Shown here piece by piece: positions 28,682 to 48,524 of a stretch of 64,000 bases of DNA. The stretch spans positions 1-64,000 of the forward strand of contig NZ_CP039694.1 of the NCBI RefSeq assembly GCF_005145045.1, given 5' to 3'. The position numbers and the translations under genes are program-made. The DNA is from Agrobacterium larrymoorei (lineage in GTDB: Bacteria > Pseudomonadota > Alphaproteobacteria > Rhizobiales > Rhizobiaceae). Position 1 is the first letter of the stretch. Every line of letters starts with the position of its first letter. The notes beneath the pieces were generated by a model, which was given only the letters and a program-made list of their open reading frames with translations, made no database searches and was not told the origin of the DNA.

Positions 28682-28778
28682 GCCCACCAGAGCCTCGTCG
28701 CTCTTCATCCCGCAGTCATCCTTTATCGATTAACCCAGAACCGGTGCCTTGCCCGGTCGATACCCGGAGTGTGTCCAA

Positions 28779-30113: not shown

Positions 30114-30175
30114 TCCCTCCGGGCCGCGCGCGCCCCTCTTCATGCGGCCTTTTGCACGCAGACAGGAAGATGATC

Positions 30176-30958: not shown

Positions 30959-30981
30959 CCCCAATCCAAGAGGAGAAGTCT

Positions 30982-32229
30982 ATGACCCTATCAAACGTCA
31001 ATACAGAGAATGCCGCGAAGGCAGTGCCGCCGGTGCCTCGTTCCGCCGAGCCCGCCCATGTCATCAAGACCGATACCGAGGCGATCGCCGTCGCAAAGAC
31101 ACTTGCAGCCGAGTTTATCAAGGGCTCGGCGATAAGAGACCGCGATCGGATCTGGCCGGTCGAGGAACTCGACGCCTTCTCGCAGAGCGGACTGTGGTCG
31201 ATCAATGTGCCGAAGGCGTTCGGCGGACCGCAAGTCTCCTACGCGACCCTTGCCAAAGTCATCGAGATCATTTCGGCGGCCGATAGCTCGATCGGACAGG
31301 TTGCGCAAAACCATCTCGGCGTCGTTGCTGCTATTCGTACCGTTTCGGATGAGCACCAGCAAAAGCTGCTGTTCTCAGAAGTGCTGAAAGGCACGCGCTT
31401 CGGTAACGCCTTCTCGGAGTTCGGCTCCAAGCGGGCAGTGGATTTCGAAACGAAATTCGTCGATGCCGGAGATCATGTCATCGTCAACGGAAAGAAGTTC
31501 TATTCTTCAGGCGCGCTGCTGGCACATCTGGTGCCGATCGTTGCGCTGGATGACGAGGGCAGGGCGTGGTACGCGATCGCCGATCGCGGCGCCGAGGGAC
31601 TGACGGTAATCGACGACTGGTCGTCGTTTGGGCAGCGCACGACACTTTCTGGAACCGTATTGCTTAACAACGTCAAAGTTCCAAAGACGCATCTCGTGCC
31701 TGGCTATAAGGGCTATGAGGTTCCGACAGCCGATGGTGCGATCTTCCAGATCATCCAGGTTGCAGTCGATACCGGCATTGCGCAAGCGGCTATCGATGAA
31801 ACGGTGAATTTTGTGCGGACCAAAAGCCGCGCCTGGGTGGATTCAGGCGTCGACAATGCCTGGGACGACCCCTACACGATCCAGGCGGTCGGCGATCTCA
31901 CTTTGCGCCTGCACGCGGCGCAAGCCTTGCTGGAAAAGGCCGGGTACGCCATCGACCGGGCAATAGCCGATCCGAATGCGGAAACTGTCGCTGAAGCGCA
32001 GATCGTTACGGCAGAGTCTAAGATACTCTCGACGGAAATCGCCATTCTTGCCACCAACAAACTGTTCGAACTGGCCGGTACGCGATCGACCCTCGCCGAA
32101 CACGGCCTAGACCGTCATTGGCGCAACGCCCGAACACACACGTTGCACGACCCGGTTCGCTGGAAATACGCCATCTTGGGCAAATATTTTCTGAATGGCG
32201 AGAAACCGCCCCTGCACGCATGGAGCTGA
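30982..32229 (+). CDS. sfnB: SfnB-type sulfur acquisition flavoprotein (acyl-CoA dehydrogenase fold)
   Basis: A 415-residue flavoprotein of the acyl-CoA dehydrogenase superfamily, in the SfnB/DszC-like branch that uses reduced flavin on sulfur compounds. Seen: helical N-terminal domain, the AFSEFGSKR flavin-contact block near residue 140, a beta-domain with GKKFYSSGALLAHLV, and the C-terminal block HGLDRHWRNARTHTLHDPVRWK. The last is characteristic of the DszC/SfnB group. Preceded by GAGGAG. Last gene of the cluster begun at 23979; it probably shares FMNH2 from the MsuE-type reductase. Confidence 0.88.
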   Translation: MTLSNVNTENAAKAVPPVPRSAEPAHVIKTDTEAIAVAKTLAAEFIKGSAIRDRDRIWPVEELDAFSQSGLWSINVPKAFGGPQVSYATLAKVIEIISAADSSIGQVAQNHLGVVAAIRTVSDEHQQKLLFSEVLKGTRFGNAFSEFGSKRAVDFETKFVDAGDHVIVNGKKFYSSGALLAHLVPIVALDDEGRAWYAIADRGAEGLTVIDDWSSFGQRTTLSGTVLLNNVKVPKTHLVPGYKGYEVPTADGAIFQIIQVAVDTGIAQAAIDETVNFVRTKSRAWVDSGVDNAWDDPYTIQAVGDLTLRLHAAQALLEKAGYAIDRAIADPNAETVAEAQIVTAESKILSTEIAILATNKLFELAGTRSTLAEHGLDRHWRNARTHTLHDPVRWKYAILGKYFLNGEKPPLHAWS

Positions 32230-32667: not shown

Positions 32668-33435
32668 ATGACCAGGACCCCTTATTCCCATTCGCAGAAC
32701 CAGCTACTCACGATGTTGCCCGCCCCATCACGGCGACAGCTTTTTTCGAAGCTTGAGCTCGTGCCGCTGGTGCAAAACTACCGCATTGCGTCTAAAGGCG
32801 AGATCATCAAATACGTCTACTTCATGAATTCCGGGGTTGGATCAGTCATCGCCTCGTCAAGCAAGGGGCGCATTTCGGAAACCGGCATCATTGGGAACGA
32901 TGGTTTTGCTCCCTTGGCGTTGAGCTTTGGAATTGATCGGAGCCCGTTCGACATTATTGTCCAATGCGAAGGCGATGGGTTCCGGATGAAGGCGGACGCG
33001 TTTCAAGAAATCGCGTCATGCGATCCAGTCGTTGCGCAGATGGCTCTTCGTTACGCTCATATTTTCTTGATCCAGGCAGCTTGTACGGCCCATTCCAACG
33101 CTCTCGACAGGGTCGAGGTCCGTTTAGCTCGTTGGTTATTGATGTGCCATGATAGGATTTGGGGGAACAAAATCGCACTTACCCATGAGTATCTTGCACT
33201 TATGCTCGCCGTTCGCCGTCCAAGCGTTACGACGGCGTTGCACGTGTTGGAGGGAAACGGCTACATTCGTTCAACGCGAGGCGAGATATTCATCCGGGAT
33301 AGGAAAGCTTTGGAGCAGTTCGTTGGCAGCTCATATGGCCATCCCGAACAGGAATATGCCGATTTTGTTCATTGGATGGAAAGCGAGCGCCACACTTGGA
33401 ACGTCGATTGTCACTCCAGATTTGCGCCGCAATAG
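32668..33435 (+). CDS. Crp/Fnr-family transcriptional regulator
   Basis: A 255-residue regulator. Residues about 15-135 form a cyclic-nucleotide-binding-like beta-roll. Residues about 150-225 carry the winged helix-turn-helix (LARWLLMCHDRI... then LTHEYLALMLAVRRPSVTTAL). No FNR-type N-terminal cysteine cluster is visible, so oxygen sensing by Fe-S is not supported. The ATG at 32668 is preferred because GGGAGAGAG lies just before it. Gene targets are unknown; neighbours are the sulfur cluster upstream and the dnd genes downstream. Confidence 0.88.
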   Translation: MTRTPYSHSQNQLLTMLPAPSRRQLFSKLELVPLVQNYRIASKGEIIKYVYFMNSGVGSVIASSSKGRISETGIIGNDGFAPLALSFGIDRSPFDIIVQCEGDGFRMKADAFQEIASCDPVVAQMALRYAHIFLIQAACTAHSNALDRVEVRLARWLLMCHDRIWGNKIALTHEYLALMLAVRRPSVTTALHVLEGNGYIRSTRGEIFIRDRKALEQFVGSSYGHPEQEYADFVHWMESERHTWNVDCHSRFAPQ

Positions 33436-33655: not shown

Positions 33656-34834
33656 TCAAAAGCGTAGATCCTCAAGACGTGCGGCGAGCAGATGCCAATC
33701 AATCGGATCGGCATCATGCGTCCAAGAAATTCGAACGGTTCCTGCGATAATGTCCTCCGGTAGGCTCATTGCCTCCAGGACATGGCTCGGCTCATAGCGC
33801 GCTGAGGTACATGCTGAGCCGTTGGAGATTGCGACAATATCTTTGGCCGCAACCATAACAGCCTCCGAGTCGATCCCCGGAATTGCAAAGCTCAAGATGT
33901 TCGAGACCACCCCTTTCTCGATCCCACCGTGTACTGTAAAGCCGTCCATCACAGCGAAAGCCGAAATCGCTTCGCGCCGGATCCTTTCGCAGGCCTGGCG
34001 ACGCGCGTCTCTTTCTTTCTCGGCGAGTTCGCATGCGAGGCCGAAGCCTGCAATCAACGGAGTCGCCAAGGTGCCAGGCCGCAACCCCCGCTCTTGTCCG
34101 CCACCGAACATCAGCGGCGAAAGGGGAGGGCGACGATCATCGCGACGGCGCGCAACCAAGGCGCCAATACCTTTGGGACCCATGATTTTGTGCCCGCTCA
34201 CCGATATCAAGTCGATGCGAGAGTTACGAAGCTCTTCGGTCTCCTTGCCAAATGACTGAGCAGCGTCCACATGGAAAAGAATTTCACTCCCTCGTAAACG
34301 AGAAGCGATATCGGTGATGGGTTGGAGAGCGCCAGTCTCGTTGTTGGCGTGCATCACAGAACATAGCAAGGTGTCCGGGCGCAAGGCAGCGACCACTTCG
34401 GCGGCGTCAATGTGCCCGTTAATGTCAGGCTTGACCAGAGTGATTTCGAACCCGTTTTCCCGAAGATGCTCGACGGGTTCCAGAACCGCCTTATGCTCTA
34501 TCGCAGTCGTAACTATGTGCCGGCGACCGGTTCTTTCCCCGTACGGCGCAAGTCCAAGTATCGCTATGTTGTTCGACTCGGTTGCCCCTGACGTGAAAAA
34601 TACTTCTTCCTCAGAAGCGTCGAGGGTTGCGGCAACCTGGCGCCGGGCGCGTAAAACAGCATTGGATGCCGTAGCCCCATAGACATGGGTGCGGCTGCCG
34701 GCATTGCCGTATTCTTCCACCATCATTTTTAAAACAAGCGCGGCCACTCGCTTGTCCGTCGGTGTAGTGGCAGCGGCGTCAAGGTAAACGGGTGTTTTGT
34801 ACGTTTCCAAAGAAACAAACTGCGTCTTGTTCAT
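33656..34834 (-). CDS. dndA: DndA/IscS-type cysteine desulfurase
   Basis: A 392-residue PLP-dependent cysteine desulfurase. Schiff-base Lys216 (SVSGHKIMGPKG), PLP-contact HVDAAQSFGK and catalytic Cys342 (SNGSACTSARYEP) are present. DndA supplies sulfur to DndC for DNA phosphorothioation. It is divergent from dndB with a 69-base gap, the standard dnd arrangement, so the promoters are back to back. Sequence alone cannot separate DndA from a general IscS-like enzyme; context decides. Confidence 0.93.
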   Translation of the reverse strand: MNKTQFVSLETYKTPVYLDAAATTPTDKRVAALVLKMMVEEYGNAGSRTHVYGATASNAVLRARRQVAATLDASEEEVFFTSGATESNNIAILGLAPYGERTGRRHIVTTAIEHKAVLEPVEHLRENGFEITLVKPDINGHIDAAEVVAALRPDTLLCSVMHANNETGALQPITDIASRLRGSEILFHVDAAQSFGKETEELRNSRIDLISVSGHKIMGPKGIGALVARRRDDRRPPLSPLMFGGGQERGLRPGTLATPLIAGFGLACELAEKERDARRQACERIRREAISAFAVMDGFTVHGGIEKGVVSNILSFAIPGIDSEAVMVAAKDIVAISNGSACTSARYEPSHVLEAMSLPEDIIAGTVRISWTHDADPIDWHLLAARLEDLRF

Positions 34835-34903
34835 TGACGTTGTCCGTTAATATTTGTTATTGAATACCATGTCTCAACGAACGATGAAACAGGGTAGATT
34901 CGA

Positions 34904-35995
34904 ATGAGAGGAACCCTCGAATTTCCTGCCGTCCGTGGTATTCAAGCAGGGAGAGAATACTACGTTTCAATGTGCCCTTTGGGGTTCGTCCACAAGATTT
35001 TCATCTTTAATGAAAAGAACGAGAAGGCGCTTACGCCGGAGATGCGCGTTCAGCGTCATCTAAATCGAAGCCGGGTTCCCGAGATCGCACGATACCTTGT
35101 TAGTAATCCCTCCAGCTATGTGTTTTCGGCCATAACGGCGTCGATCGATGGTGAAGCGGTATTTCGCCCCTTTGATCAAGACGTGTCGGGGCGTCACGGC
35201 ACCCTCGAAGTCCCCATGTCGTCAAAGATCATTTTGAACGATGGGCAACATCGCCAGGCAGCCATCGCCCAAGCGCTGCTACAGTCGCCGGAGCTTGCTG
35301 ACGAAACGATCGCCGTCGTCCTGTTTCACGATCGCGGATTGGCCCGCTGCCAGCAGATGTTCTCTGATCTGAATCGCTACGCAGTTCGCCCACCACGGTC
35401 GCTCAATGTTCTTTATGACCATCGTGACGATCGAGCACTGGTGGCTAAACACATTCTAAAAGGAATTCCAGATTTCGCCGATCTCGTCGAGCTGGAAAGG
35501 TCAAGTCTATCGGCGAGAGCCAAGCAGCTGTTCACGCTCAGCGCGCTCTACACAGCGACCGCGGCACTGTTTGTTGGCCACGATTTTCCCAATCAAGACG
35601 CTCGTGGGGAGATCGCCCTTGATTTCTGGCGACAGGTCAGCGCGGTTATGCCGCATTGGGGCGAAGTGCGCTCAGGTCAAACGTCGTCGGGTGCGTTACG
35701 GGACGAATATATTCATTCCCATGGGGTTACGCTACATGCGCTTGGACGCGTGGGAAACACTCTTCTGAAAGCAGGAATGGACTTGAGCGGAGCTCTTCCA
35801 GCCCTTGGCCAGATCGATTGGCGCCGGTCATCTCATCTTTGGAAGGGCCGGGCCGTCGTAGCTGGAAGGATGTCAAAATCCCACCAAGCCGTGATCCTAA
35901 CCGGCAACCAGATTAAAATGGCCCTGAAACTTCCGCTCAGTGCTGAGGAACGGATCCTGGAAGACAATTTTATGAGGCAAGATCATGTCGCCTGA
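34904..35995 (+). CDS. dndB: DndB, DNA sulfur modification regulator
   Basis: A 363-residue DGQHR-domain protein, the DndB family. DGQHRQAA lies at residues 113-120, and the N-terminus contains the usual LEFPAVRGIQAGREYYVSMC. DndB is a repressor of dnd transcription in characterised systems and is not needed for modification itself. First gene of dndBCDE; it overlaps dndC by 11 bases. The 69-base gap to dndA holds the probable operator. Length is normal for the family. Confidence 0.93.
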   Translation: MRGTLEFPAVRGIQAGREYYVSMCPLGFVHKIFIFNEKNEKALTPEMRVQRHLNRSRVPEIARYLVSNPSSYVFSAITASIDGEAVFRPFDQDVSGRHGTLEVPMSSKIILNDGQHRQAAIAQALLQSPELADETIAVVLFHDRGLARCQQMFSDLNRYAVRPPRSLNVLYDHRDDRALVAKHILKGIPDFADLVELERSSLSARAKQLFTLSALYTATAALFVGHDFPNQDARGEIALDFWRQVSAVMPHWGEVRSGQTSSGALRDEYIHSHGVTLHALGRVGNTLLKAGMDLSGALPALGQIDWRRSSHLWKGRAVVAGRMSKSHQAVILTGNQIKMALKLPLSAEERILEDNFMRQDHVA

Positions 35996-37520
35996 CCCTA
36001 GCAGCAGAAATTCTGGGCGGGTGTCCGCTTTTCAAGAAGGGTTCAAAAAGACCATCACGGCTCTGCTTGAAGAGATCGTTGCGCTGTACAAAGCAGACCG
36101 CACACCATGGGTCGTGGGTTATTCTGGCGGAAAAGACTCGACCGCAACCTTGCAGCTCGTATGGATGGCACTTTCACGGATCGAGGCGGCTGAGCGACTA
36201 AAACCGGTCTATGTCATCAGTACGGATACGCTGGTGGAGAACCCCATTGTTGCCCTTTGGGTTGGGAAGTCACTCGATAAGATGGGGGAAGCTGCCGCAA
36301 ACAACGGTCTGCCCTTAACGTCACATCGTCTCACCCCCGATCCGACTGAAAGTTTTTGGACCTCGCTTATCGGTCGCGGCTATCCCGCACCTCGTCCAAA
36401 GTTTCGGTGGTGTACCGACCGTTTGAAGATCAATCCTTCCAATCGCTTCATTTCGCGCGTCGTCAAGGCGAGTGGCGAAGCTATCGTTGTCTTGGGCACG
36501 CGAAAGGCTGAAAGCCGGGCCCGCGCGCGATCCATGGAGCGGTTCGAAGGAAAGCGAGTACGTGACAAGTTGAGCCCAAACGGCAAGCTTCCAAATTCAT
36601 TCGTTTATTCGCCAATCGAAGATTGGTCTAACGATGATGTCTGGACCTTCCTGATGCAGGTGAAGAACCCCTGGGGGTTCGATAACCGCGATCTTCTCAC
36701 CATGTACCAAGGGGCTTCGGCTGACGGCGAGTGCCCTCTCGTCATCGATGCGTCGACGCCAAGCTGCGGGGATAGCCGGTTTGGTTGCTGGGTCTGCACG
36801 ATGGTAGACCAAGACAAGTCGATGACGGCGATGATCCGCAACGACGTTGATAAGGAGTGGATGCTGCCGCTTCTTACCCTTCGCAATGAGCTTGACGTTC
36901 GCAATGAGCAGGGCAAGAGGGACGATCGGCACCTGCGAGATTTTCGTAGGATGAACGGATCGATGCAATTGCACAATGGGCGAGTTGTTCCCGGACCTTA
37001 CGTTCAGAGTGCAAGAGAGACTTGGCTTCGAAAAGTCTTGGAAGCTCAGGAGCATCTGCGTGCCAACGGTCCCGACGATGTCCGCGAAATTGAACTTATT
37101 TCGCTCGCAGAGCTTCGCGAGATAAGGCGCATATGGGTAACCGAGAAGCACGAAATCGAAGACAGCTTACCGGAGATCTACCAGGAGGTGACTGGTAATG
37201 CGTTTCCAGACGGACAACTCGACGAGACGACCCCGTTTGGACGCGATGAAATCGATATTCTCAGGGAAATTTGCGGTGAGGATGTCCTCCATTTCCAGCT
37301 GACACGGGAGCTGCTCGACGTCGAGCGTCAGCATCGCTCCATGGCGCGCCGGGCTGGTCTTTTCAAGGCGCTTGAAAATTCGCTCCGCCGCGGAGCTTAC
37401 GGGAGTGCGGCCGAGGCCGAGGAGACGGCTATTTCCCGACAGGACATTATCGACGATCTGCGGGATGAGGAGGAGCTCAGTCTTTTCGAATACCAACCGC
37501 TTGGAGCTCCCGCCCCATGA
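35985..37520 (+). CDS. dndC: DndC, phosphorothioation ATP-pyrophosphatase
   Basis: A 511-residue PAPS-reductase-like protein. The ATP pyrophosphatase PP-loop SGGKDS is at residues 47-52, and a cysteine cluster (STPSCGDSRFGCWVCTMVDQ) is the Fe-S ligand set. DndC activates the DNA backbone and transfers sulfur from DndA. Its start overlaps dndB and its stop overlaps the dndD start by four bases (ATGA), so the four genes are translationally coupled. Confidence 0.95.
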   Translation: MSPDPSSRNSGRVSAFQEGFKKTITALLEEIVALYKADRTPWVVGYSGGKDSTATLQLVWMALSRIEAAERLKPVYVISTDTLVENPIVALWVGKSLDKMGEAAANNGLPLTSHRLTPDPTESFWTSLIGRGYPAPRPKFRWCTDRLKINPSNRFISRVVKASGEAIVVLGTRKAESRARARSMERFEGKRVRDKLSPNGKLPNSFVYSPIEDWSNDDVWTFLMQVKNPWGFDNRDLLTMYQGASADGECPLVIDASTPSCGDSRFGCWVCTMVDQDKSMTAMIRNDVDKEWMLPLLTLRNELDVRNEQGKRDDRHLRDFRRMNGSMQLHNGRVVPGPYVQSARETWLRKVLEAQEHLRANGPDDVREIELISLAELREIRRIWVTEKHEIEDSLPEIYQEVTGNAFPDGQLDETTPFGRDEIDILREICGEDVLHFQLTRELLDVERQHRSMARRAGLFKALENSLRRGAYGSAAEAEETAISRQDIIDDLRDEEELSLFEYQPLGAPAP

Positions 37521-39511
37521 TACTCGACGAAATTGTCCTTCATGACTTCGGCGTTTACGGTGGTCATCAGAGCATCAATCTCGCGCCTGTCAGCAAGACG
37601 CAACCGATTATCCTCTTCGGTGGATTGAACGGCGGCGGCAAGACCACACTCCTCGATGCATTGCAGCTCTGCCTGTTTGGCAACATGGCAAAATGCGCGG
37701 GTCGCGGCCAGTTGAATTATGACGAGTATCTACGCAGGTCGATCCATAACCAGGCAATCGCGCCGGAAGCGGCGGTTGAGCTAGCTTTCAGACACAAAGT
37801 GGACGGCGAAATGCAAAATCTTCGCCTGACGAGGTCATGGTCAGTCGGTGAGACAGTGCGCGAGCGCTTCTCGGTCACACGCAATGGTGTTGTAGACAAA
37901 GCCGCGAGCGACCATTGGGGCGTTCAAGTCGAAGACTTTATTCCAGCCAGAATTGCTGATCTCTTTCTGTTCGACGGAGAAAAGGTCGAAGGATATGCGG
38001 ATCTCGATCAGGCCCCTGGGTTGATCAAGAGCGCAGTCCAAAATCTGCTAGGGCTTGACGTTGTCGAGCGACTTGGGTCCGACCTCAATTCTATTGAGCG
38101 GCGAAAAAAGGCGGATTTGAAAACGCCAGAAGAAACGGAAGCGCTTGGGAGGTTGCGGGATGAAATCCAAAAGCTTGCCACCGAACGAGGCCGGCTTGTG
38201 GTGGAACGAGCAGCCGCTACAGTCGAAATTGATCGCTTGCGCAGACGTTTTGAAGACCTCGATGCCCAATACGATAAAGAGGGCGGTAGCATTTTTGAGG
38301 ACCGGGGTCGGCTTGAAGCAGAGCTCGCCGTTGCAGAGCGCGGCCTCGACGCGATGGAACGCTCAATGCGCGAACTGGCCTCGGGCGCAGCACCCCTACG
38401 ACTTGTTTCGAATCTCTTGGAGGGAGTGCATCAGCGCGCGATTGTCGAAGACCGTGCTCGTCGCAGCTTGCAGACAGCTGAAGTCGTTGCCGAAGAGCAT
38501 GATGCGCTCCTTGGCCATCCCGCGCTCAGGGAACTTTCGAAAGATGTCCTCACAGATTTGAAAGCGCATGCCTCCGAGCGTTTGTCAGTCCTACGTGCTG
38601 CGGCGTCCGAGCCCATCCTGCTTAATCTCGAGGCCGGGGCGTCAACGGCAATTTCTGACTTGATTAGAACTGAACTCGTCGATATCGGGTCAGCCAGCGG
38701 TGACCTCTTAAAAGAAGAGGCCCTGATCAAAGAGCAGATAAGAGCCTGCAAAAGTCTGCTTGCTGCGGTGCCGAATCAATCTGCGATCGCCGAACTTCAG
38801 GTTCAAAGAGAAGCAGCCCGCGACAGCCTCAAGATCGCCGAGTACGAGCAGTCGCGGCGCGAAACTGACATCGGGCGTTTCGATCGAGATATCGCTGCCA
38901 AGCGCGAGAGGGAAACCAAACTCCTGGAGTCCTCCGCGCGAGAGCAATTCGAGCAGGATGATGTAAGGCGAGTTCTGATCCATTCCTCGCGTGTCCGCGA
39001 CACACTCGAACTTTTCCGCGAAGCGGTGGTCAAAAGACACGTCTCACGTATAGAAGGCTTTGTTCTAGAGAGCTTCCAACACCTTATTCGCAAGCCCACA
39101 TTGGTTTCCGGCCTGAAAATTGATCCTCACGACTTTACGATCGAGCTATCCGGGTCGTCGGGTCAGAAACTGACATCTGACAGACTGTCCGCTGGTGAGC
39201 GTCAGCTGCTTGCGATTGCTCTTCTTTGGGGACTTGCAAAAACCTCAGGTCGGCCATTGCCGACAGTAATTGACACGCCACTTGGAAGGCTCGACTCAGA
39301 ACATCGAACCCGCCTTGTAAAGCGCTACTTTCCGTTCGCAAGCCATCAAGTCTTGCTGCTGTCGACCGATGAAGAGATCACCCGCGGTTACTATGATGCG
39401 CTCAAACCAATGATTGGTCGCTCATACCGACTCCATTACGACCAAGGACAGTCGCGCACCATTGTCGAGGATGGCTATTTCGAGGGTGAGGAGGGCCAGC
39501 AGTGGCAATAG
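37517..39511 (+). CDS. dndD: DndD, SMC-like ATPase of the phosphorothioation complex
   Basis: A 664-residue SMC/Rad50-like ATPase. Walker A GGLNGGGKTT is at residues 35-44. A long coiled coil covers about residues 190-480. The ABC signature LSAGERQLLAIALLWGL and Walker B PTVIDTPLGRLD are near the C-terminus. DndD couples ATP hydrolysis to DNA nicking or structural change during modification. It overlaps dndC by four bases and dndE by ten. Confidence 0.95.
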   Translation: MILDEIVLHDFGVYGGHQSINLAPVSKTQPIILFGGLNGGGKTTLLDALQLCLFGNMAKCAGRGQLNYDEYLRRSIHNQAIAPEAAVELAFRHKVDGEMQNLRLTRSWSVGETVRERFSVTRNGVVDKAASDHWGVQVEDFIPARIADLFLFDGEKVEGYADLDQAPGLIKSAVQNLLGLDVVERLGSDLNSIERRKKADLKTPEETEALGRLRDEIQKLATERGRLVVERAAATVEIDRLRRRFEDLDAQYDKEGGSIFEDRGRLEAELAVAERGLDAMERSMRELASGAAPLRLVSNLLEGVHQRAIVEDRARRSLQTAEVVAEEHDALLGHPALRELSKDVLTDLKAHASERLSVLRAAASEPILLNLEAGASTAISDLIRTELVDIGSASGDLLKEEALIKEQIRACKSLLAAVPNQSAIAELQVQREAARDSLKIAEYEQSRRETDIGRFDRDIAAKRERETKLLESSAREQFEQDDVRRVLIHSSRVRDTLELFREAVVKRHVSRIEGFVLESFQHLIRKPTLVSGLKIDPHDFTIELSGSSGQKLTSDRLSAGERQLLAIALLWGLAKTSGRPLPTVIDTPLGRLDSEHRTRLVKRYFPFASHQVLLLSTDEEITRGYYDALKPMIGRSYRLHYDQGQSRTIVEDGYFEGEEGQQWQ

Positions 39512-39876
39512 AACATATCCGACTATCGATGCAGGCCCGCGAGCAACTCATACGCCTGAAGCGACATACTGGGATTGAACATTGGAATGTCCTCTGCCGC
39601 TGGGCGTTTTGCCGTTCTCTCGCCGAGGAGACAGTGCCGCCGGCCTCTAAAATTCCGGCCGATAGCAACGTCGAAATGTCATGGAAGGTGTTTGGCGGCC
39701 GTCACTCAGAACTTTACATGGCGCTTCTAAAGGAGCGGTGCCTGCGCGATGGGCTGGGCATCGATGACGAGACGCTCGCAATGCAGTTTAGACTTCACCT
39801 CCACCGCGGCATTGCATATCTCGCCAATGATCGAGACATGCGCGACATCGCCTCCATGTTGGCTTTGGCTTCCTGA
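39502..39876 (+). CDS. dndE: DndE, DNA-binding subunit of the phosphorothioation complex
   Basis: A 124-residue DndE. It begins at GTG 39502 inside dndD and keeps the family pattern IRLSMQAREQLIRLKRHTGIEHWNVLCRWAF in outline. DndE binds nicked double-stranded DNA. Last gene of dndBCDE; a hairpin straddling its stop separates it from the convergent ParB-like gene. Length is typical. Confidence 0.94.
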   Translation: MAIEHIRLSMQAREQLIRLKRHTGIEHWNVLCRWAFCRSLAEETVPPASKIPADSNVEMSWKVFGGRHSELYMALLKERCLRDGLGIDDETLAMQFRLHLHRGIAYLANDRDMRDIASMLALAS

Positions 39877-39899
39877 GCCAAAGCAAATCGCTTCGGCTC
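39875..39899. terminator. Bidirectional terminator between dndE and the ParB-like gene
   Basis: GAGCCAAAGC (39875-39884) and GCTTCGGCTC (39890-39899) form a 10-bp stem with one mismatch and loop AAATC. ATTTTC follows on the plus strand. It lies exactly where the two convergent operons meet. Confidence 0.65.
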
Positions 39900-39912
39900 C
39901 ATTTTCCGTCTG

Positions 39913-41184
39913 TTAACGATCTGATTCGATCATGCGCAGATAGGTTTCAGAGGTGACTCGAATTTCGTCCAAGACCGGCTTTAGCATCGTCGATTGCTGA
40001 TGTAGCGCATCCGCTTTCATGTCTTTTAAAGCCTGCAGAAGGGCGTTAAGATTTTGAACAGGGCTGAAACGTGCCTTGTGCTGGTCCTTTTGGAGTTTGA
40101 TCTCCTTCAACGTCGGTGAATTCGCAGGATTCAAAACATCTAGTTCGATTGCGAAATTTGTCGAATTCTTGTTGTCATAACGTGAAAGCGCATTCCATTC
40201 TCGCATGTCCTCGGCTTTTCGCATGACGTTGGGGTTCAGGTTATCGTCGTCGTCCTCATCGCCGGCTCGAGGTTTGGAAAAGACCCACTGGAACAGTGCT
40301 TCTGACGCTTCCTCGGAAAGCTGCAGATCGTCAGCACCGAATTTCAGCTTTTCGCGGGGGTAAGGGTTCCTGAGGATCTGATCAAAATAGTAATTGTCTC
40401 GATCCTTGAACTCGTTACCCGCTGCTTCGACGCGCTCCGCAAACTCTGCTTTAAAGTGATCGAAAGCGCTGGCGGTCTGAATTCTCAATCGCGCATCCTT
40501 AGCCGTCATCGAAAATATCTCTGCAACTTCGGAGACAAGATCCTTTTCCAGCTTTAGCTCGCGTCCATCGATGTAACGCTTGCGAAACAGATCTTCATAA
40601 AGGAGGGTGATGTAGCGGTTCGTGGCATAGGGTCCCCAGTTCTTGGTGCCTGTGACGTGTCGGACACCGAGCAGTTTTGGCAACGTCGCATCTAGTTCAT
40701 TTGCATCTCTTGCTTGGACAAACTGCACCTGAATTTGTGCCGTCGCATCCACCAATGCCTGTAGCTGGCGAAGATCCCGCTGCTGGTCGCGTGCGACGTC
40801 TTGAATGATACGACCACCAGATCGCGCCTTCCCAAGACGGGCTTGGGCGGCCGCCAGTCGAAGGCGCGCCCGCCTCAGAATTGCCGTCCGGGTGTTTCCC
40901 TCAACAACGACATAAGCATCTTCGCGGTCGGGGTGTTTCCAAACGATGATCGGGTCAATCGGGGTCCATCCCAGCCGCGTGATCGCCTGCTCTAGATCTT
41001 CGGCCTGATAAGCTTCAAAAACCTTCTGAGGAAGATCACGCTGGACGACTGGATCAAAAAGCTTGGTCGCATCGTCATAACCTGGGGCCGGATCTGGAGC
41101 GATGCGGGGATTGTTAGGGTCCAAGTAGAGCCTCTCGAAAGGCACAGTTTCCGGCAGGCTAAGATGCGGGATGGTCATAGTCAT
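39913..41184 (-). CDS. ParB/Srx-like domain protein of the dnd-associated module
   Basis: A 423-residue protein with an N-terminal ParB/Srx-like fold (PFERLYLDPNNPRI, then VVVEGNTRTAILRR at residues 92-105). A charged middle contains a DDDDNLNPN stretch and the C-terminus is helical. In phosphorothioate systems ParB-like folds occur as DNA-binding or nickase-type accessory domains, and this one carries the EGNTR nucleotide-site signature. It starts 11 bases after the helicase stop, so the two form an operon convergent with dndE. No DndF, DndG or DndH is recognisable nearby. A role in phosphorothioate-dependent restriction is inference. Confidence 0.75.
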   Translation of the reverse strand: MTMTIPHLSLPETVPFERLYLDPNNPRIAPDPAPGYDDATKLFDPVVQRDLPQKVFEAYQAEDLEQAITRLGWTPIDPIIVWKHPDREDAYVVVEGNTRTAILRRARLRLAAAQARLGKARSGGRIIQDVARDQQRDLRQLQALVDATAQIQVQFVQARDANELDATLPKLLGVRHVTGTKNWGPYATNRYITLLYEDLFRKRYIDGRELKLEKDLVSEVAEIFSMTAKDARLRIQTASAFDHFKAEFAERVEAAGNEFKDRDNYYFDQILRNPYPREKLKFGADDLQLSEEASEALFQWVFSKPRAGDEDDDDNLNPNVMRKAEDMREWNALSRYDNKNSTNFAIELDVLNPANSPTLKEIKLQKDQHKARFSPVQNLNALLQALKDMKADALHQQSTMLKPVLDEIRVTSETYLRMIESDR

Positions 41185-41195
41185 GATCGTATCTC

Positions 41196-43562
41196 CTAAA
41201 GAGCGAGAAGTCGCTGTCGGCCCGCGTTATCGAGAAACGCATCAAGGCGATTGATGAAATGAAAGGGGATCGGCAACGGTGCGCTCGTCGCGGTCAGCTT
41301 CGCAAACTCTGCGAAGCGGCTCTCTAGCGGGACGCCCGCTAGATTCGACGCAAGGCCCCTCAGATATGCTTCAATAAGCTGGAAATCATGCTTTTCTAGA
41401 AGCAAAGCCTCGTCGAACTCCGCGCCGGGTATCGGCAGTTTGAGAGCTCCGCCGAAGCGCTCCGGGTCAAGTAGGTAGTCTGCTTCTATGGCGCGATCGT
41501 TGTGGCAAGATGCGAGGAACGCCTGCAAAGCCGCAGGGATCGTCGGTTCGAAGCCAACCGTTGCATATGTTAGCCAGGTTGTTGGATCACCTTTCTTACG
41601 CGGAGGTCGGTTCCCTTGTATCGCAAAGGAGCGGTTTGGAACGATTTCCTGTCGGGCGCAGTGTGCGGATCCCAAAAGATCTATGAGCCGCCGCCACGTG
41701 CTTCCTCTCGTCATATCGCGGCGCAGGCCGAAAGAGTGGCCGACCTGTTCTAGAAATTCCGAGGGGTCTGACTGCAGTGCGCCACTCTCACAATAACCGT
41801 TGAAGCAGGCCATGAAGAGCGGGCGGTTATCCGGCGTCTCAAGAAAAACATCCCATTCGGCGCGAGTGTCGAAATCTTCAGTCGCGCCAAAATAGGGCTG
41901 ACCATAAAATAACAATTTCAGGGGCTCAACCAGATCAAGCTGTGTGACCATGTCCAGGACTTCCTTCTTCCTAGCATCGGAAATCCGGTGTTGGGCAAGG
42001 AGCTCGGTCACTGCCGTAACTCGGTCAGCCGGCGCCGAGAACGACCGATCGATCAAACGGGGCAAGAGAAAATCACTGATCTCTTGATGTAGCCATCGGT
42101 GGTCGAAACGATAAGCAACGCCGGGATCGTCCACCTGCACGACAAAGGCGTTAGTTTTCTCTCCATCATATCTGACACAACGACCAGCCGCCTGCATCAG
42201 ACGAATGATGCTCGAGGTTTGGTAGGTCAGTATGACGGTGTCGATCGACGGGTCGTCGTAGCCTTCTAGCAGAACCTGCGCCGAAATAAGGATTGCGCGC
42301 CGCTTCTCCGAAAAGCGCTCAAGGAAATCTTCGTCCTCGATGTCCAGCGAGTTGGCCGACCCATGAATGTAGCCTACATCATCACTTCTAAGTGGATGAT
42401 CAACTTCTCCAAGCAGACGTGATGTCAGCCTGTCGTAGAGCAACTCGATTTCGCTGACTTGCGTCACCAAGATCAAGACCTTGCGGAACCGGCCCGATGT
42501 TTCGTCGATGATGTTATCTACAAAGTCATTGAGCTTTCCCTCGTTCGTCCAGTCGAGGTCCTTGCAAGCAAAAGGAATGAATTCGGGAATAATGATGCAA
42601 TGACGATCGGCCAGTTCCCTATATGTTATCGTGTAAGCTATCTCATCGATACCAATCGGCAGGTTATCGGGACGGTTCGGTGTTGCGGTGAGGATCAAGA
42701 ATGGTGCGCTCACCTCCGGGCGTAAGAGTGTCCCATAAGAGGGCGCCGCCGCGTGGTGACCCTCATCGAGAATAACCAGGCACGGCTTGCCGTTATTGGC
42801 CAGGTAAGCCTCTGCCTGGCTCAACATCATAAATGTTATGCGATTCGCAAGTTCTGCGGCATTGCGAGGCAATCCACTCGGCGCTTGCAATAGCTTGCGA
42901 AGCTGCTTTTCTGCTTGACGACGTAGGGTCTTTCGATGCGTCACCCAGATGATCTTAGCCGGCGCAGGGAATTCGCTGAGCCTCTCGAGGGCGACCCGCA
43001 ACGCCACCCTCGTTTTTCCCGCTCCGGTCGGAAGGACCAACCCGATACGACCATTCGGACGTCTTGCGAAGGCGTCGAGCGCGCGCCGCACTGCCGTGTC
43101 TTGATACGACCAGTCTGGAAGACCGCCATTTTGGATTTTTACAGGTGTAGGCCGCAGTCCGAACGAGCCGGATGCAAACAATGCGGTCCGGATCACAGCT
43201 CGGGGAAGTGAAAGTGTCGCTGCGATTTCCTCAATTTCCCCACCGCGTTCTCGCATTGCGACCGCGCGTTTGCGAACGTCCGCGAGCATAGCGTCTCCAC
43301 GAACGCGTACAGCCTGATCGACACCTTCAAGCCCGCTACGAGTAAGCTCCAGCGTGCTTTCGTTGACGCCGCGGCCCACGTCGTCGGACAGAAGCGAATG
43401 AAGGCGGTTGGGGTGCAGCTCTCGCGATTCCCCAGTGCGCGCCAATCCTTCATTCAGCGTCCGGCAGAGGCTCGCTACGCTTCCTGTTGCCAGATAGAGC
43501 GCGGCCAACGGGAACACGACTGACTGCACCTCTTCCATTTGAACGCTTAGCCGCGCCATCAC
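41196..43562 (-). CDS. Superfamily 2 DEAD/DEAH-type helicase of the dnd-associated module
   Basis: A 788-residue SF2 helicase. An N-terminal region of about 135 residues includes helix-turn-helix-like IEEIAATLSLPRAVIRTALF. The RecA-like motor follows: Q-like WSYQDTAVRRAL, motif I LPTGAGKT (177-184), motif II DEGH (266-269), motif III TATPNRPDN, and motif VI QAAGRCVRY. The C-terminal 250 residues are not recognised. It resembles restriction-type (ResIII-like) translocases. It is the first gene of the minus-strand pair with the ParB-like gene. A divergent DUF2958 gene lies 212 bases away. Confidence 0.85.
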   Translation of the reverse strand: MMARLSVQMEEVQSVVFPLAALYLATGSVASLCRTLNEGLARTGESRELHPNRLHSLLSDDVGRGVNESTLELTRSGLEGVDQAVRVRGDAMLADVRKRAVAMRERGGEIEEIAATLSLPRAVIRTALFASGSFGLRPTPVKIQNGGLPDWSYQDTAVRRALDAFARRPNGRIGLVLPTGAGKTRVALRVALERLSEFPAPAKIIWVTHRKTLRRQAEKQLRKLLQAPSGLPRNAAELANRITFMMLSQAEAYLANNGKPCLVILDEGHHAAAPSYGTLLRPEVSAPFLILTATPNRPDNLPIGIDEIAYTITYRELADRHCIIIPEFIPFACKDLDWTNEGKLNDFVDNIIDETSGRFRKVLILVTQVSEIELLYDRLTSRLLGEVDHPLRSDDVGYIHGSANSLDIEDEDFLERFSEKRRAILISAQVLLEGYDDPSIDTVILTYQTSSIIRLMQAAGRCVRYDGEKTNAFVVQVDDPGVAYRFDHRWLHQEISDFLLPRLIDRSFSAPADRVTAVTELLAQHRISDARKKEVLDMVTQLDLVEPLKLLFYGQPYFGATEDFDTRAEWDVFLETPDNRPLFMACFNGYCESGALQSDPSEFLEQVGHSFGLRRDMTRGSTWRRLIDLLGSAHCARQEIVPNRSFAIQGNRPPRKKGDPTTWLTYATVGFEPTIPAALQAFLASCHNDRAIEADYLLDPERFGGALKLPIPGAEFDEALLLEKHDFQLIEAYLRGLASNLAGVPLESRFAEFAKLTATSAPLPIPFHFINRLDAFLDNAGRQRLLAL

Positions 43563-43773
43563 CGCTCTCCACTTGGTTTACAAAAGAATTAAAATGGAAT
43601 TAAAAAAAGGTCAATCCAAAATAATGGAATTCATCTCCGTCGTCGGTTTGACGTGCATGTCTGCCAGAGGCAGCCCGCGCGTCAATCCGCTGCCCGCACC
43701 GGCCGCGTTGCGGATGACACGTGGCTTCCGCCTCAGGCTCTCCACGCCAGCCAAACCGACGATGGAGACGAAA

Positions 43774-44121
43774 ATGACAGAGTTGATAAGCAAAACGGAA
43801 AGAGAAGAGTTGATCGAAAATGGACGGAAGTCCTACCTTACCGGCGACGATGATTTCATGCCGGTTGTCAAACTCTTTCTGCCAGATGGAGCAGCGACGT
43901 GGCTGCTTACGGAAATCAGTGATGAAGACGGCGATCTCGCCTACGGGTTATGCGACTTGGGTCTAGGCTCGCCAGAAATAGGTCAGGTTTCACTGTCTGA
44001 AATCGATGCGATACGAAGCCCGAACGGGCTACGCGTGGAAAAGGATAAGAGCTTCCGTGCGAAGCGCTCTTTGCTGGAATATGCGAGGCTGGCCCGATCT
44101 GAGGGGATGATCATCGACTGA
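43774..44121 (+). CDS. DUF2958 family protein
   Basis: A 115-residue DUF2958 protein. The family pattern VKLFLPDGAATWLLTEI, then GLCDLGLGSPEIGQVSLSEI, is complete. The family is common on plasmids and near conjugation or defence genes, and its function is unknown. The start is placed at 43774 (MTELISK), six bases after GGAG; a longer frame from 43573 would add an implausible basic leader. It lies alone on the plus strand between two minus-strand dnd-associated operons. Confidence 0.85.
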   Translation: MTELISKTEREELIENGRKSYLTGDDDFMPVVKLFLPDGAATWLLTEISDEDGDLAYGLCDLGLGSPEIGQVSLSEIDAIRSPNGLRVEKDKSFRAKRSLLEYARLARSEGMIID

Positions 44122-44153
44122 TATCGGATGATCCGACGGCTCACCGTGTCGGA

Positions 44154-45125
44154 TCACCTTCGCTCTTCCCATATCTTCTTGACCTCGGCTATTGGTTGAT
44201 GTCGGTCAAGTCGGATCGGATCATGGAGTTTGCAAAAAACGGCGAGATTAGTAGGATTAGGGGAACCCTTCCAATCCTTCAGCGCTATCACCATTTCGGA
44301 CGTCTGGGCCGTGTGGGTACATCCATCCTTGTGCTGGCATCGCTTCTTGAACGCAAGAAGTCTGATGGTCCAGAACGGATGGGGTAGCTCGTGAAGATGA
44401 TGGACGCCCACCGAGAAGCGGCTGACCTGCGGAGGGACAAAAGTCGCCTCATAAAGTGACAGGCGCGAGCTTTTGTACCGGTTGCACCACCCGCAGGAGA
44501 GACGGAGATTGGCTTGTCCGTGCCCGCCAGACGCCACCGGGACAACATGTTCGATTTCGATGCCTACATCCCTGCCGATAAGTCCCCTCGGTTGGAGCAC
44601 GTCTACCATTGCGGGGAGTTTGACGGAAGAACGTCCCTTTACCCTCAAAAGAGCGTCGATCGCCTCGTTCGAGAACTCATAGCCACAGATGTAGCATCTC
44701 GGTAGCGAGGTCGACGCCAGCAGCGCTTTTTTTGTCGCGATGCTCGCGGTGTCGCGGACTTTCGTCAGCCTCAGCCGTTCCACCTCACTCCACAGATGTT
44801 CGGTGATGTTATCGACGAGCGGCTTCAGGCTGTGCGGATCGGTATCCGCATGCAGCAATTTTATTCGGTCCGCGATCAGCTGATAAACGTCAAGACGGTC
44901 CAATGGTGGATTGAGGCCGGCTATCCGTTGGGGACTGATGAGACCTTCGAGATACCATCGAAGCCACAGACGGTGCTGATCACCGCGCAGCAGCGACTCC
45001 TTGTCACCGAGCATCTCGGACGGGAAAGGCGAAGTCGCAAGTTCGAGGATTGTCTTCTCGTCCCAGGCACTTGCTGGATCGTAAGAAACCCTACCGATGA
45101 AAGACGCCAGGATGTCGACTGCCAC
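44154..45125 (-). CDS. HNH endonuclease of the dnd-associated module
   Basis: A 323-residue HNH nuclease. The zinc ribbon CYIC (144-147) and CGWC (211-214) brackets the active-site EH (192-193) and Asn206. The helical N-terminus (residues 1-135) has no recognised family. It starts 12 bases after the stop of the DGQHR gene, so they are co-transcribed. In SspE and GmrSD-type restriction factors a DGQQR/DUF262 NTPase is fused or paired with an HNH nuclease. Here the parts would be separate proteins. Cutting of DNA according to phosphorothioate status is inference. Confidence 0.85.
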   Translation of the reverse strand: MAVDILASFIGRVSYDPASAWDEKTILELATSPFPSEMLGDKESLLRGDQHRLWLRWYLEGLISPQRIAGLNPPLDRLDVYQLIADRIKLLHADTDPHSLKPLVDNITEHLWSEVERLRLTKVRDTASIATKKALLASTSLPRCYICGYEFSNEAIDALLRVKGRSSVKLPAMVDVLQPRGLIGRDVGIEIEHVVPVASGGHGQANLRLSCGWCNRYKSSRLSLYEATFVPPQVSRFSVGVHHLHELPHPFWTIRLLAFKKRCQHKDGCTHTAQTSEMVIALKDWKGSPNPTNLAVFCKLHDPIRLDRHQPIAEVKKIWEERR

Positions 45126-45137
45126 AGTGCGATTTCC

Positions 45138-46838
45138 TCACACGCTTTTGAACGGCTTGGAAAACTCTTCTGGCGCTGGCAATTTCTCGCCATTCTGGCG
45201 ATGATTAACCCACAGTTTTGACCATTGCTTGCGAGTGCCGACCGCGTCCTTCTTCACGCCCTCAAGCTTCCAGTTTCGAGCAAAGTAGTTCTTTTTAACA
45301 TAAGCCAGCCACTCATCAACGATTAGACCGATCTGATCGGCGGACTCGATTTTATAGCGTCGCTCTTTTAGATAGGCGAAGAAATCGGCAGACAAGATGT
45401 GGAGACTAGGCTTGTTAAATATGTTCGAAGTGCGCGTTCTGCCCCAATAATTTGGAGCAGCTTCATTCTCTGTGTCAGCCAAGCTGTCGCGCGTCTTAGC
45501 CCAGAACGCCTTGAAAATCTGCATCCAAGGACCGTTGATGTCTTGCCAGTATTCATAGGGAGAGGAGAATTCTCGTGCCTGCCAATCCTGGACGATAGGG
45601 GAATCCGCCAGATGATGCGACCGCCAGGTTTTGGCATGGTCGACACTGTCATGATAATAGCGACCTCCAACGAGGTATCGGAACATATCTGCAAGCGAGC
45701 CGAGCACGCTCCATTGGAGTTTGTCGATACCCTCCTGATCGAGCCCTTTCGCAACCAGATTTTTGAAGGGGCTATCGTCCGCGCGAGACAGGATGGAGAT
45801 GATCCGCGATCCCTGCAGTTGGATGTCGGCATCTTCAAGCCGGTCAGCGATGGTTTTCAGCTCGTTGGCGGCAAGGCTTGTAGAAATGATAGTGCCAAGA
45901 AGGGCCCGTGGTACCGGCGTAGCCTTCTGGTTGACCAAAACATATTGGAAAACATGCTCAGCCGGTGAAGAATCCATCAAAAGTGATATAGGCAATTTTC
46001 TTGCCCGTTCGCGCATGAGCTTTTGTTTCGCCTCCCTGGCCGATTCGCCTTCGAGGATCATCGTCTCTGCTTCGTCGCTGGTATTTACCTCGTCTTGCAC
46101 GGCAAGGACTGCGCCACGTAGTCTGTGTTGGCCATCTACAAGAATGACCGGTCTCAAATAGGATTCCAAGACCTCTCTAGAAAAGCCAAGAATCGCGTCG
46201 TTTGGGACGTTGGCAACAAACTTTGACAATATCTCCTCGCGAGCGCGCAGTTGGTCCCAGAAGTCAGTAATCTGGGATTCGTCGAACAACGCTTCCTCTG
46301 CAGGTTCTGTGGACAGCTCTACCTCATATGCCGCGTCTTCGGTCAGGTCCTCCACTTCCTCTTCTGTCGCCGACAATGAAGATAGGTCGGGCATCTGTTG
46401 TTGCAGCGTATCGACCAGATCAACAGGAGCCGGTCGATCTTTAAGGAATGGTGCTCGTTCTTCAACGTACTCGCGCGCTTCTTTCAAAAGATCCAACAGT
46501 GACTTCTGCTGGTAATCCGGAAAGGTGATTGTCACATATCCTAGTCCTGAGTCGCCTTCAGGTTCGAAGCTGACAGCAACGCCAGGGTCTTGACGAATGG
46601 CGCAAAGCAACGGGTTCTGGATGACATTTGCAGGCTCGGAGAAGAACTTCCGGAGAGCGGCTTCTCGTCGAGGAGACACAGTGCGCTGGAAACCAGCCGT
46701 CTCGCTACCTTTGAGGTCAAGTCTCTGTGGGATCCCAACCCAGGCGTCTATTTCGATAGCAGACGCCGAGAACATCAGAAGCTCTTTGGAGCCACCGTCT
46801 TGTATGACCTGGACGCACGGATAACGGTGACTGCTCAT
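45138..46838 (-). CDS. DGQHR-domain protein of the dnd-associated module
   Basis: A 566-residue protein with the DGQHR signature at residues 235-239 (ILVDGQHRLRGAVLA), as in DndB and relatives, but much longer than DndB. An acidic stretch (residues about 155-180) precedes the core. The start is taken at 46838 (MSSHRY) because GGGAAGAGG lies just upstream; a frame to 46997 exists without one. The HNH nuclease gene follows after 12 bases. It is a second DGQHR protein within one dnd island, and so a candidate sensor of sulfur-modified DNA; this is inference. Confidence 0.8.
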   Translation of the reverse strand: MSSHRYPCVQVIQDGGSKELLMFSASAIEIDAWVGIPQRLDLKGSETAGFQRTVSPRREAALRKFFSEPANVIQNPLLCAIRQDPGVAVSFEPEGDSGLGYVTITFPDYQQKSLLDLLKEAREYVEERAPFLKDRPAPVDLVDTLQQQMPDLSSLSATEEEVEDLTEDAAYEVELSTEPAEEALFDESQITDFWDQLRAREEILSKFVANVPNDAILGFSREVLESYLRPVILVDGQHRLRGAVLAVQDEVNTSDEAETMILEGESAREAKQKLMRERARKLPISLLMDSSPAEHVFQYVLVNQKATPVPRALLGTIISTSLAANELKTIADRLEDADIQLQGSRIISILSRADDSPFKNLVAKGLDQEGIDKLQWSVLGSLADMFRYLVGGRYYHDSVDHAKTWRSHHLADSPIVQDWQAREFSSPYEYWQDINGPWMQIFKAFWAKTRDSLADTENEAAPNYWGRTRTSNIFNKPSLHILSADFFAYLKERRYKIESADQIGLIVDEWLAYVKKNYFARNWKLEGVKKDAVGTRKQWSKLWVNHRQNGEKLPAPEEFSKPFKSV

Positions 46839-47274: not shown

Positions 47275-47715
47275 TCATTCGAGATCGGCATCCCCAAATT
47301 TTGCCCGATTTGGGCCGACTTCTGCAATTGCTAAATAGTCGAAGGGGGCCACGGGTCCTTTGAGCAGGTCCAGAATTTTCTCCGCGCTTTCAATGTGAAG
47401 CGAAATGATCCACGTTGACGTCGATGTATGCTTTTCCGCCGGCTTGAGAGACTCTAAGAGGGCAATCAACGCTGACCGGCGTTGCTCAGCCTTTCCCCTT
47501 TTTTTCGACGTAGAGTTCTTGATCCGATAATTGACCTGAAACGAGCGAGATTTTGTATTTGCCTTCACAGCCGCTACTTCAGCCGCAGCAAGTGCGGCGA
47601 TCCATTGGTCAATTTCACGCTTGCGGGCGGCGGCTTCGGTCCTTGATGCCTCTTCCAACGCGGAAAGCGCTTTAGTGATGGCGGTCGCCCTGTTGCTTTT
47701 GCCTGTGTCCATCAT
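47275..47715 (-). CDS. Hypothetical helical basic protein
   Basis: A 146-residue protein of no recognised family. The N-terminal half is an alanine-rich, probably coiled-coil helix (residues 8-55), followed by a lysine-rich segment (SKKRGKAEQRR) and a C-terminal half with STSTWIISLHIESAEKIL. No signal peptide. The ATG at 47715 has AGGGAA upstream. It shares strand and neighbourhood with the dnd-associated operons, 80 bases downstream of another hypothetical gene. A role in the island cannot be shown. Confidence 0.6.
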   Translation of the reverse strand: MMDTGKSNRATAITKALSALEEASRTEAAARKREIDQWIAALAAAEVAAVKANTKSRSFQVNYRIKNSTSKKRGKAEQRRSALIALLESLKPAEKHTSTSTWIISLHIESAEKILDLLKGPVAPFDYLAIAEVGPNRAKFGDADLE

Positions 47716-47795
47716 AAAAAATTCCCTTAGTTTCGTGTCGCGATTGCTTGCAAAATTTGCATTGATGAAACGAGCCTCCTCCCCGCAATATCGCG

Positions 47796-48260
47796 TCAGC
47801 CGCGGATCGTGATCTCAATAGCGGCCTCGGGCACGTTGAATGTGACCGCCAATCCTGCCTTGGCTTCTGCGATCGTCAACCCCAGTGGCTTAGACGCAGC
47901 GATGGCTTGATAAGCCAGCCCACTGAAATCGATATCCGGGAAATCCCGCTCGCTCCAATAGGAAACAGGATTTCGCCCGGACCACTGGTCCGGGACGTTG
48001 GTTAGCGCGTACTCTCTTATCAGTATCAGCCAGCGATTGGGTGTTTCCGTCGAGGCGACAACATCTTTGACTTTGCCGACCATAAATGCGGTTCCGTGTG
48101 CCTCCGAGCCTCGCATCTCGCGAGCCTTGGCGTTTCGGCACATGACGACATAGTCGCATCGGGCAGCTCGGTTCCTGTCTAACGCCCAAGATTGGGTCCC
48201 GCCATCAGATAAAATCGTCTCGACGGACTTGCTAGTCATCACAGATATCACTTCGCTCAT
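47796..48260 (-). CDS. Hypothetical soluble protein
   Basis: A 154-residue soluble protein without a recognised family. It contains RCDYVVMCRNAKAREMRGSE and a run of alternating strands (GTAFMVGKVKDVV, NRWLILIREYAL), which suggests a small alpha/beta or beta-barrel fold. It begins at ATG 48260, seven bases after GGTATT, a weak ribosome site. Followed on the same strand by the gene at 47275-47715, probably in one transcript. Confidence 0.6.
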   Translation of the reverse strand: MSEVISVMTSKSVETILSDGGTQSWALDRNRAARCDYVVMCRNAKAREMRGSEAHGTAFMVGKVKDVVASTETPNRWLILIREYALTNVPDQWSGRNPVSYWSERDFPDIDFSGLAYQAIAASKPLGLTIAEAKAGLAVTFNVPEAAIEITIRG

Positions 48261-48524
48261 AGGAAATACCCCGATTCACCGAAGGAATTAATAGGTTACT
48301 TTCGCCAAAGTATCAATGCAGGTAATTTTCAATCTTGAGGCAAAATAGACTGTGAGACGCGGTGTCGCGAGTGACCTCAGGGCAGAGACCGCTAACCTGC
48401 CAAGTTGACTTTCGGTTGTTCGAAATCAGTATTCGATCTGCCGCGATTTTTGTTCCCGTAGAGATCCGGGCTGGATTGCCCTCGATAGTTCCACTATATT
48501 TGCTCCATGGCACAGGAAACGAAA

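Follow-up and report, generated by a model that had tools for sequence, protein, structure and literature searches.

A two-gene DGQHR-HNH candidate effector in a phosphorothioation island of Agrobacterium larrymoorei plasmid pTiAF3.44

The DndA-E protein families incorporate sulfur into host DNA, and in many dnd loci the restriction module is DndFGH (DptFGH). In a different module, PbeABCD, an SF2 helicase and an HKD (PLD) nuclease are joined in one protein, which is accompanied by PbeC and by another DndE. Here we describe a dnd island of the plant-associated bacterium Agrobacterium larrymoorei AF3.44, found at 33656-46838 of the 64 000-nucleotide stretch analysed (the window). Beside dndA and dndBCDE, the island carries two further gene pairs, one coding for a DGQHR-domain protein and an HNH nuclease, the other for an SF2 helicase and a ParB-like protein. 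We consider it fairly probable that this locus serves phosphorothioate (PT) restriction-modification. Its main effector would be the DGQHR-HNH pair, acting as a two-subunit nuclease that is gated by nucleoside triphosphate (NTP) and spares PT DNA.

Dnd modification genes often occur uncoupled from DndFGH, and HNH, HKD, restriction endonuclease (REase) and other nucleases are found in Dnd neighbourhoods (PMC10853773). That source counts 3416 taxa that combine a Dnd modification module with one or more nucleases, and only 806 of them have DndFGH. The Dnd-associated HNH described in that source is fused to winged helix-turn-helix (wHTH) and SRA domains, a fusion that the HNH protein of the window does not have by Pfam.

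Several described systems share the proposed design of the pair. DndI, from the IscS-DndBCDE-DndI system of Salmonella Cerro 87, combines a ParB-fold NTPase with HNH and is partnered with dndBCDE; it has the motif DGQQR, can act without dndFGH and spares PT DNA (PMC11662687). However, DndI is one polypeptide, whereas the window pair is made of two, has DGQHR and comes from a genome with no DUF262 match. SspE, from SspABCD-SspE, has a ParB-like (DUF262) fold NTPase, stimulated by PT and coupled to an HNH nickase, with a logic termed “recognize-hydrolyze-activate” (PMC13251355). The GmrSD type IV enzymes have ParB/Srx-fold and HNH subunits, in one or two proteins, with the QR pair and D-G-Q-x-R (PMC4619093). 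Unlike the window pair, which resides with modification genes, GmrSD has a DUF262 subunit with DGQQR and cuts modified DNA. Such a domain combination is also reported for bacterial ParB-CTPase folds with HNH, but as fusions, and the passages of that source we draw on describe no tie to dnd (PMC12704722).

Finally, TIGR04172, TIGR04062 and TIGR04095 are dnd-dependent families (PMC3226654). The first, “DNA phosphorothioation-associated DGQHR protein 1”, resembles the window protein as a DGQHR protein tied to dnd, a link that came from phylogenetic profiling. It is a separate, smaller family (381 positions), with no HNH partner mentioned in the relevant passage (PMC3226654), and the window protein did not match it at E <= 0.1. 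A protein of locus L070 reaches 276 of the 450 bits required. The first-pass annotation of this DNA saw a possible new system here, which is too strong. Dnd loci without DndFGH and with other nucleases are published (PMC10853773), and SspE, DndI and GmrSD already combine a ParB-fold NTPase with HNH. No description of either gene pair was found in the open-access texts searched, with supplements unread, and DGQHR-HNH may be present in the supplementary data of PMC10853773.

The DGQHR protein (566 amino acids; 45138-46838, minus strand) and the HNH protein (323 amino acids; 44154-45125, minus strand) are separated by 12 bases. The start of the former, at 46838, was set by homologs of 566 amino acids and by RefSeq. 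It matches TIGR03187, of the ParB/DndB superfamily, with E 3.1e-10 and 40.2 bits, short of the cut-off of 58.85. Among the best 120 of 758 homologs, the DGQHR pentapeptide is present in all 120 and the QR pair in each of the 117 without a gap at that place. The HNH protein passes the PF01844 cut-off by a small margin (22.9 bits; cut-off 21.4). Its residues C144, C147, H193, N206, C211, C214 and K218 are invariant in all 100 homologs found, own copy included, and we take them to have catalytic or zinc-binding roles. An AlphaFold2 model of the HNH subunit has a pLDDT of 92.6. A PDB sequence search with the DGQHR profile gave no match. Foldseek alone gave nothing at E <= 0.001.

In terms of distribution, an HNH profile built from 27 sequences and scanned over 84,980 species genomes found 37 loci. 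Three of these (L035-L037) match the HNH core only and were left out of all counts, leaving 34. Judging by their names, the organisms presumably belong to Pseudomonadota, Actinomycetota, Cyanobacteria, Acidobacteriota and Myxococcota, among others. The DGQHR gene lies directly upstream of HNH on the same strand in 33 of the 34 loci. L024 has a truncated HNH and no DGQHR, and in L018 the DGQHR frame is split.

A dnd gene is present within the examined flanks of 27 of the 34 loci. In L014, L019, L026 and L034, dndC is found 12.6-20.5 kb away on the same contig. In L003 and L008, the contig ends about 0.3 and 1.2 kb away from the pair, respectively, and dndC is on another contig. L016 is an exception to adjacency, with the pair in the middle of its contig and dndC on a different one. 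At genome level, all 32 searchable genomes with the HNH family have dndC and none has DptH (L007 and L022 were not searchable as genomes). For the HNH family and DptH, this fits the co-occurrence with dnd genes lacking dndFGH that the first-pass annotation proposed to check; the outcome it named as refuting, with the extra genes mostly away from dnd, did not occur. By comparison, dndC passes the same cut-off in 13 of 398 genomes sampled from the window's phylum, a count that includes the window's genome. This comparison mixes phyla and is therefore a guide, not a test.

The two proteins also vary together. Pairwise distances of DGQHR and HNH correlate with r 0.93 (n=34), close to DndC against DndD (0.91) and TIGR04096 against DndD (0.92), while DGQHR and HNH against DndA-E give only 0.54-0.72. 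Every protein pair tested exceeded all shuffles, so shared ancestry contributes to these values, and the telling point is how far 0.93 inside the pair exceeds the 0.54-0.72 with dnd. The two genes behave as a unit, and dnd islands exchange them together. These values bear on a different role, in which DGQHR, as another protein of the DndB kind, would regulate PT level or dnd transcription, and HNH would be a repair or housekeeping enzyme. DndB and the window protein do share the DGQHR superfamily (TIGR03187), and DndB is described as a regulator (PMC10853773). On the other hand, the window already has a DndB, as do 31 of the 36 profiled islands, and DGQHR co-varies more with HNH (0.93) than with DndB (0.65). 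We find such a regulatory role very improbable.

Among 72,556 plasmid records, HNH was found on its own plasmid only, and DGQHR on its own plasmid and Bradyrhizobium pB41S5 only. Viral contigs hold two DGQHR relatives, one of which (L090) carries dndC-E. Phage records gave two weak matches, covering 5% of the dnd stretch.

Three markers of known PT effectors were searched for in the whole 5.26-Mb genome. DptF (TIGR03238) had no match, in a search where no control gave a match either. DptH (TIGR03237) had none, with two control plasmids matching. GmrSD_N/DUF262 (PF03235) had none in the genome, with 8 of 14 control genomes matching, nor among the island proteins. The island thus differs from loci with DndFGH, and the view that it lacks DndF and DndH stands, for DptF with the silent control just given; a DndFGH set just outside the window, which would have spoken against it, was not found by the DptF and DptH searches. 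We also profiled 36 islands (the 34 HNH loci, the window's plasmid pTiAF3.44 and L072) and found no DptF, DptG or DptH in the sequence examined. Flanks were limited, and module counts in these islands are lower bounds.

A Pbe module in the window was considered and rejected. PbeABCD and the TIGR04095 SF2-HKD nuclease are similar as SF2 helicase modules near dnd, and co-exist with DGQHR-HNH in many islands. But the SF2 helicase of the window has no PLD/HKD match and reaches 21.2 of 600 bits for TIGR04095, and the open reading frames (ORFs) of the region include a single DndD/DndE pair. As for DndI and SspE, which join a DUF262 NTPase and HNH in one chain, the window has two separate genes. Neither these nor the DUF262 subunit with DGQQR of GmrSD agrees with a DGQHR motif and no PF03235 match.

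The modification genes are intact and canonical, as first annotated, and all five products are above the NCBIfam equivalog cut-offs, DndA by a narrow margin. dndA, a cysteine desulfurase gene (33656-34834, minus strand; TIGR03235, 492.9 bits, cut-off 480), is divergent from the plus-strand dndBCDE. Next are dndB (34904-35995; TIGR03233, 453.4 bits, cut-off 328), the sulfurtransferase gene dndC (35985-37520; TIGR03183, 665.4 bits, cut-off 290.4), which is the sole TIGR03183 match in the genome, and dndD, coding for an ABC ATPase (37517-39511; TIGR03185, 570.8 bits, cut-off 245.85). The last is dndE (39529-39876; TIGR03184, 128.4 bits, cut-off 71.85), given with the RefSeq start; its longest ORF starts at 39502. 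In PADLOC, the SspA model ranked slightly over DndA for the dndA product, and PbeC slightly over DndD for the dndD product (731.9 vs 694.3 bits). Going by these family matches, the island's dndA-E would mark host DNA with PT, as is established for these families.

The preferred reading draws on gene content, pairing, co-variation, association with dnd, the lack of DptF, DptH and DUF262 matches, and the conserved HNH and DGQHR motifs. DndA-E would place sulfur in host DNA. The DGQHR subunit, as a ParB-fold NTPase and DNA sensor, would bind NTP and DNA and probably hydrolyse the NTP. In complex with HNH, it would hold the nuclease off PT-marked self DNA and let it nick or cut unmarked DNA. The pair would then follow the logic described for SspE (PMC13251355) and the PT sensing of DndI (PMC11662687), divided between two proteins as is possible for GmrS and GmrD (PMC4619093). 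We infer this direction, with the mark spared, because the pair co-resides with dndA-E. The extra genes may then cut or block unmarked DNA, as had been proposed from the first annotation.

In a competing explanation, the pair is a back-up suicide effector, with HNH kept inactive by DGQHR, released when Dnd is inhibited and cutting any DNA, marked or not. Such a role has been proposed for nucleases that stand alone at the edges of Dnd loci, in some cases on the other strand (PMC10853773). In the window and in many loci, the pair indeed lies at the edge and opposite to dndBCDE, and in many islands it co-exists with other effectors. However, at least 5 of the 34 loci (L002, L005, L007, L018 and L027) have no other profiled effector in the limited sequence examined, where unlabelled ORFs remain, and L009 and L012 carry the pair in line with dndC. 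Furthermore, the NTPase-type motif of DGQHR is intact, which exceeds the needs of a plain inhibitor. We regard the suicide effector as unlikely, and favour a pair that discriminates by the mark.

The order of the island is dndA, dndBCDE, the SF2-ParB operon, a DUF2958 gene and the DGQHR-HNH operon. Two minus-strand operons had been recognised at first, which is correct, but the plus-strand DUF2958 gene between them was missed (43774-44121; PF11171, 1.5e-38; RefSeq start). The SF2-ParB operon begins 36 bases beyond dndE, on the opposite strand and convergent with it. The SF2 helicase gene comes first (41196-43562, minus strand; ResIII 9.5e-17, Helicase_C 1.6e-08). Its product contains GAGKT at 180, DEGHH at 266, TATPN at 292 and QAAGR at 457, which we assign to the SF2 helicase motifs, GAGKT being Walker A. 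The ParB-like protein (423 amino acids; 39913-41184, minus strand) follows after 11 bases and has weak ParB-type matches at its N-terminal. Its D-P-N-N-P-R and E-G-N-x-R columns are kept among the matches listed (120 of 244 homologs).

The SF2-ParB pair is rarer. It was found in five loci, all dnd islands: the window, L004/L094, L006/L095, L029/L093 and L072, the last from a genome of the window's order. Among 396 genomes of the phylum, the ParB-like search gave two strong matches (window and L072) and three weaker ones, in frames of about 730 amino acids. The 347 genomes of the order gave the window and L072, and in the 297 of the family the window alone matched. Samples of 250 and 180 genomes from two further orders gave no match beyond their respective centres, G006 and G004. 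These samples overlap, and together they added one independent genome (G199, with L072). HNH had led to three of the five loci, so L072 is the only independent one, and the link of SF2-ParB to dnd rests on five loci. The ParB-like protein had no match among viral contigs, only its own plasmid among the 72,556 plasmid records, and only chance matches in a PDB sequence search. The SF2 helicase matches 64 plasmid records, with only its own plasmid matching over most of its length.

The four extra genes had first been taken as one effector. In that reading, a single restriction complex would combine an SF2 motor, a ParB-like clamp, a DGQHR sensor and an HNH nuclease. The genes are adjacent in the window, and all co-occur in L004, L006 and L029. 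A gene of the Mrr_cat restriction nuclease family follows SF2-ParB in L006 and L072 and is missing in the window, so HNH could take its place. Against this, the islands of 31 of the 34 HNH loci lack ParB, no ParB match was obtained in 29 of 32 genomes, and L072 has SF2-ParB without DGQHR-HNH. The two operons are also separate, with the DUF2958 gene between them. The idea that the extra genes travel with dnd is upheld, but not as one unit, and we judge a four-gene complex quite improbable. The extra genes are two separable modules, the widespread DGQHR-HNH and the rarer SF2-ParB. The latter would be an accessory that probably helps by translocating DNA and, in other loci, feeds a nuclease of the Mrr type.

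Of the 5 dnd islands with SF2-ParB, 3 have DUF2958 genes, against none of the 31 other profiled islands, a weak observation as the flanks differ in length. The relatives adjoin dndA in L072 (6009-6374) and in L094 (near 14900). L072 also has, at 3212-4876, a PQFQR..YSW protein, DUF262-like by eye, beside its dnd island with SF2-ParB, Mrr and GHKL genes.

Across the 36 profiled islands, the most common of the other modules is a TIGR04096 methyltransferase-like protein (23), followed by PbeC (13), PbeA (12), a GHKL ATPase (7) and an Mrr REase (6). In actinobacterial dnd islands, a sigma-70 region 4 protein was seen beside PbeA or PbeB genes (L013:981-3194, 738 amino acids; also L014, L019, L026, L031 and L096-L098). 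MzaA is only a weak relative of it (41 of 800 bits).

Related pairs exist outside the main family. On P. aeruginosa plasmid ppae01 (L069:18830-20741), a compact DGQHR (363 amino acids) and HNH (272 amino acids) lie after, and opposite, dndBCDE. Parts of both align by profile to the window families, with 96.8% probability over 66 columns and 94.6% over 99. Others are in Dpd islands, where the DNA mark is a 7-deazaguanine. Bradyrhizobium pB41S5 has DGQHR and a 280-amino-acid HNH protein beside dpdB, dpdA and queEDC, with no relative of the Enterobacter DpdD-H, J and K references within 20 kb and with other nuclease genes nearby. The A. vitis CG957 island has a related pair plus dpdJ, dpdK and dpdD, with an IS5 transposase gene between HNH and DGQHR.

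In total, 2 of the 10 dpdA-bearing plasmid islands examined have related pairs. The sample came from 18 records, of which 12 with 20-kb flanks and A. vitis with 8-kb flanks were used, and 10 of these 13 hold dpdA; the other five, three nearly identical Variovorax records and the two matches that were weakest, were left out. Given these two islands, the design may not be tied to sulfur. We put forward, tentatively and as rather doubtful, that DGQHR-HNH is a portable restriction effector for chemically unrelated marks (PT and 7-deazaguanine), in which the self-reading by the putative ParB-fold subunit can be re-aimed.

In the same context, we considered phenylalanine 50 of the GFQR motif of the DGQHR protein as a PT-sensing residue, by analogy to the tyrosine with this role in SspE and DndI (PMC13251355, PMC11662687). 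It is invariant (117/117) in the aligned family, from the same best 120 of 758 homologs. This candidate was dropped, since the phenylalanine is also present in the Bradyrhizobium Dpd version and is an isoleucine in the compact P. aeruginosa version, and so is no PT-specific signature. As a separate observation, a UvrD-type helicase and PD-(D/E)XK nuclease pair is found beside Dpd synthesis genes on Bradyrhizobium and Rhizobium plasmids (L121:12802-16399, L112:12304-16066), a possible further Dpd effector.

As for the wider setting, the window covers positions 1-64000 of contig C4 in a four-contig genome, and its sequence is that of plasmid pTiAF3.44 (NZ_CP072169.1). A window position equals the NZ_CP072169.1 position minus 352217, wrapping at the record's end. 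RefSeq also annotates all these genes on pTiAF3.44, where each of the extra four is labelled “hypothetical protein” or “DEAD/DEAH box helicase family protein”. Adjoining dndA at its 3' end is a gene for a Crp/Fnr-family regulator (32668-33435). A sulfur-acquisition operon (msuE, sfnG, ABC transporter and SfnB family; 23979-32229) stops about 1.4 kb before dndA and could serve as sulfur supply for the PT mark. In 19 other plasmids among the matches listed, similarity takes in the last part of this operon and ends ahead of the island. Upstream of the DGQHR gene are two small minus-strand genes (47275-48260), one matching the phage family phrog_37247 (1.2e-31). Past the island, a small gene and a zeta-toxin-family gene (48507-49609) are likely a toxin-antitoxin pair.

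Lastly, DGQHR-HNH is a concrete candidate for enforcing the sulfur mark in taxa without DndFGH. Its strengths are the tie to dnd, the full conservation of the presumed active-site residues and a distribution over the genomes of several phyla. Should the pair be at work in Dpd islands too, it would illustrate how one effector design is fitted to different DNA marks.

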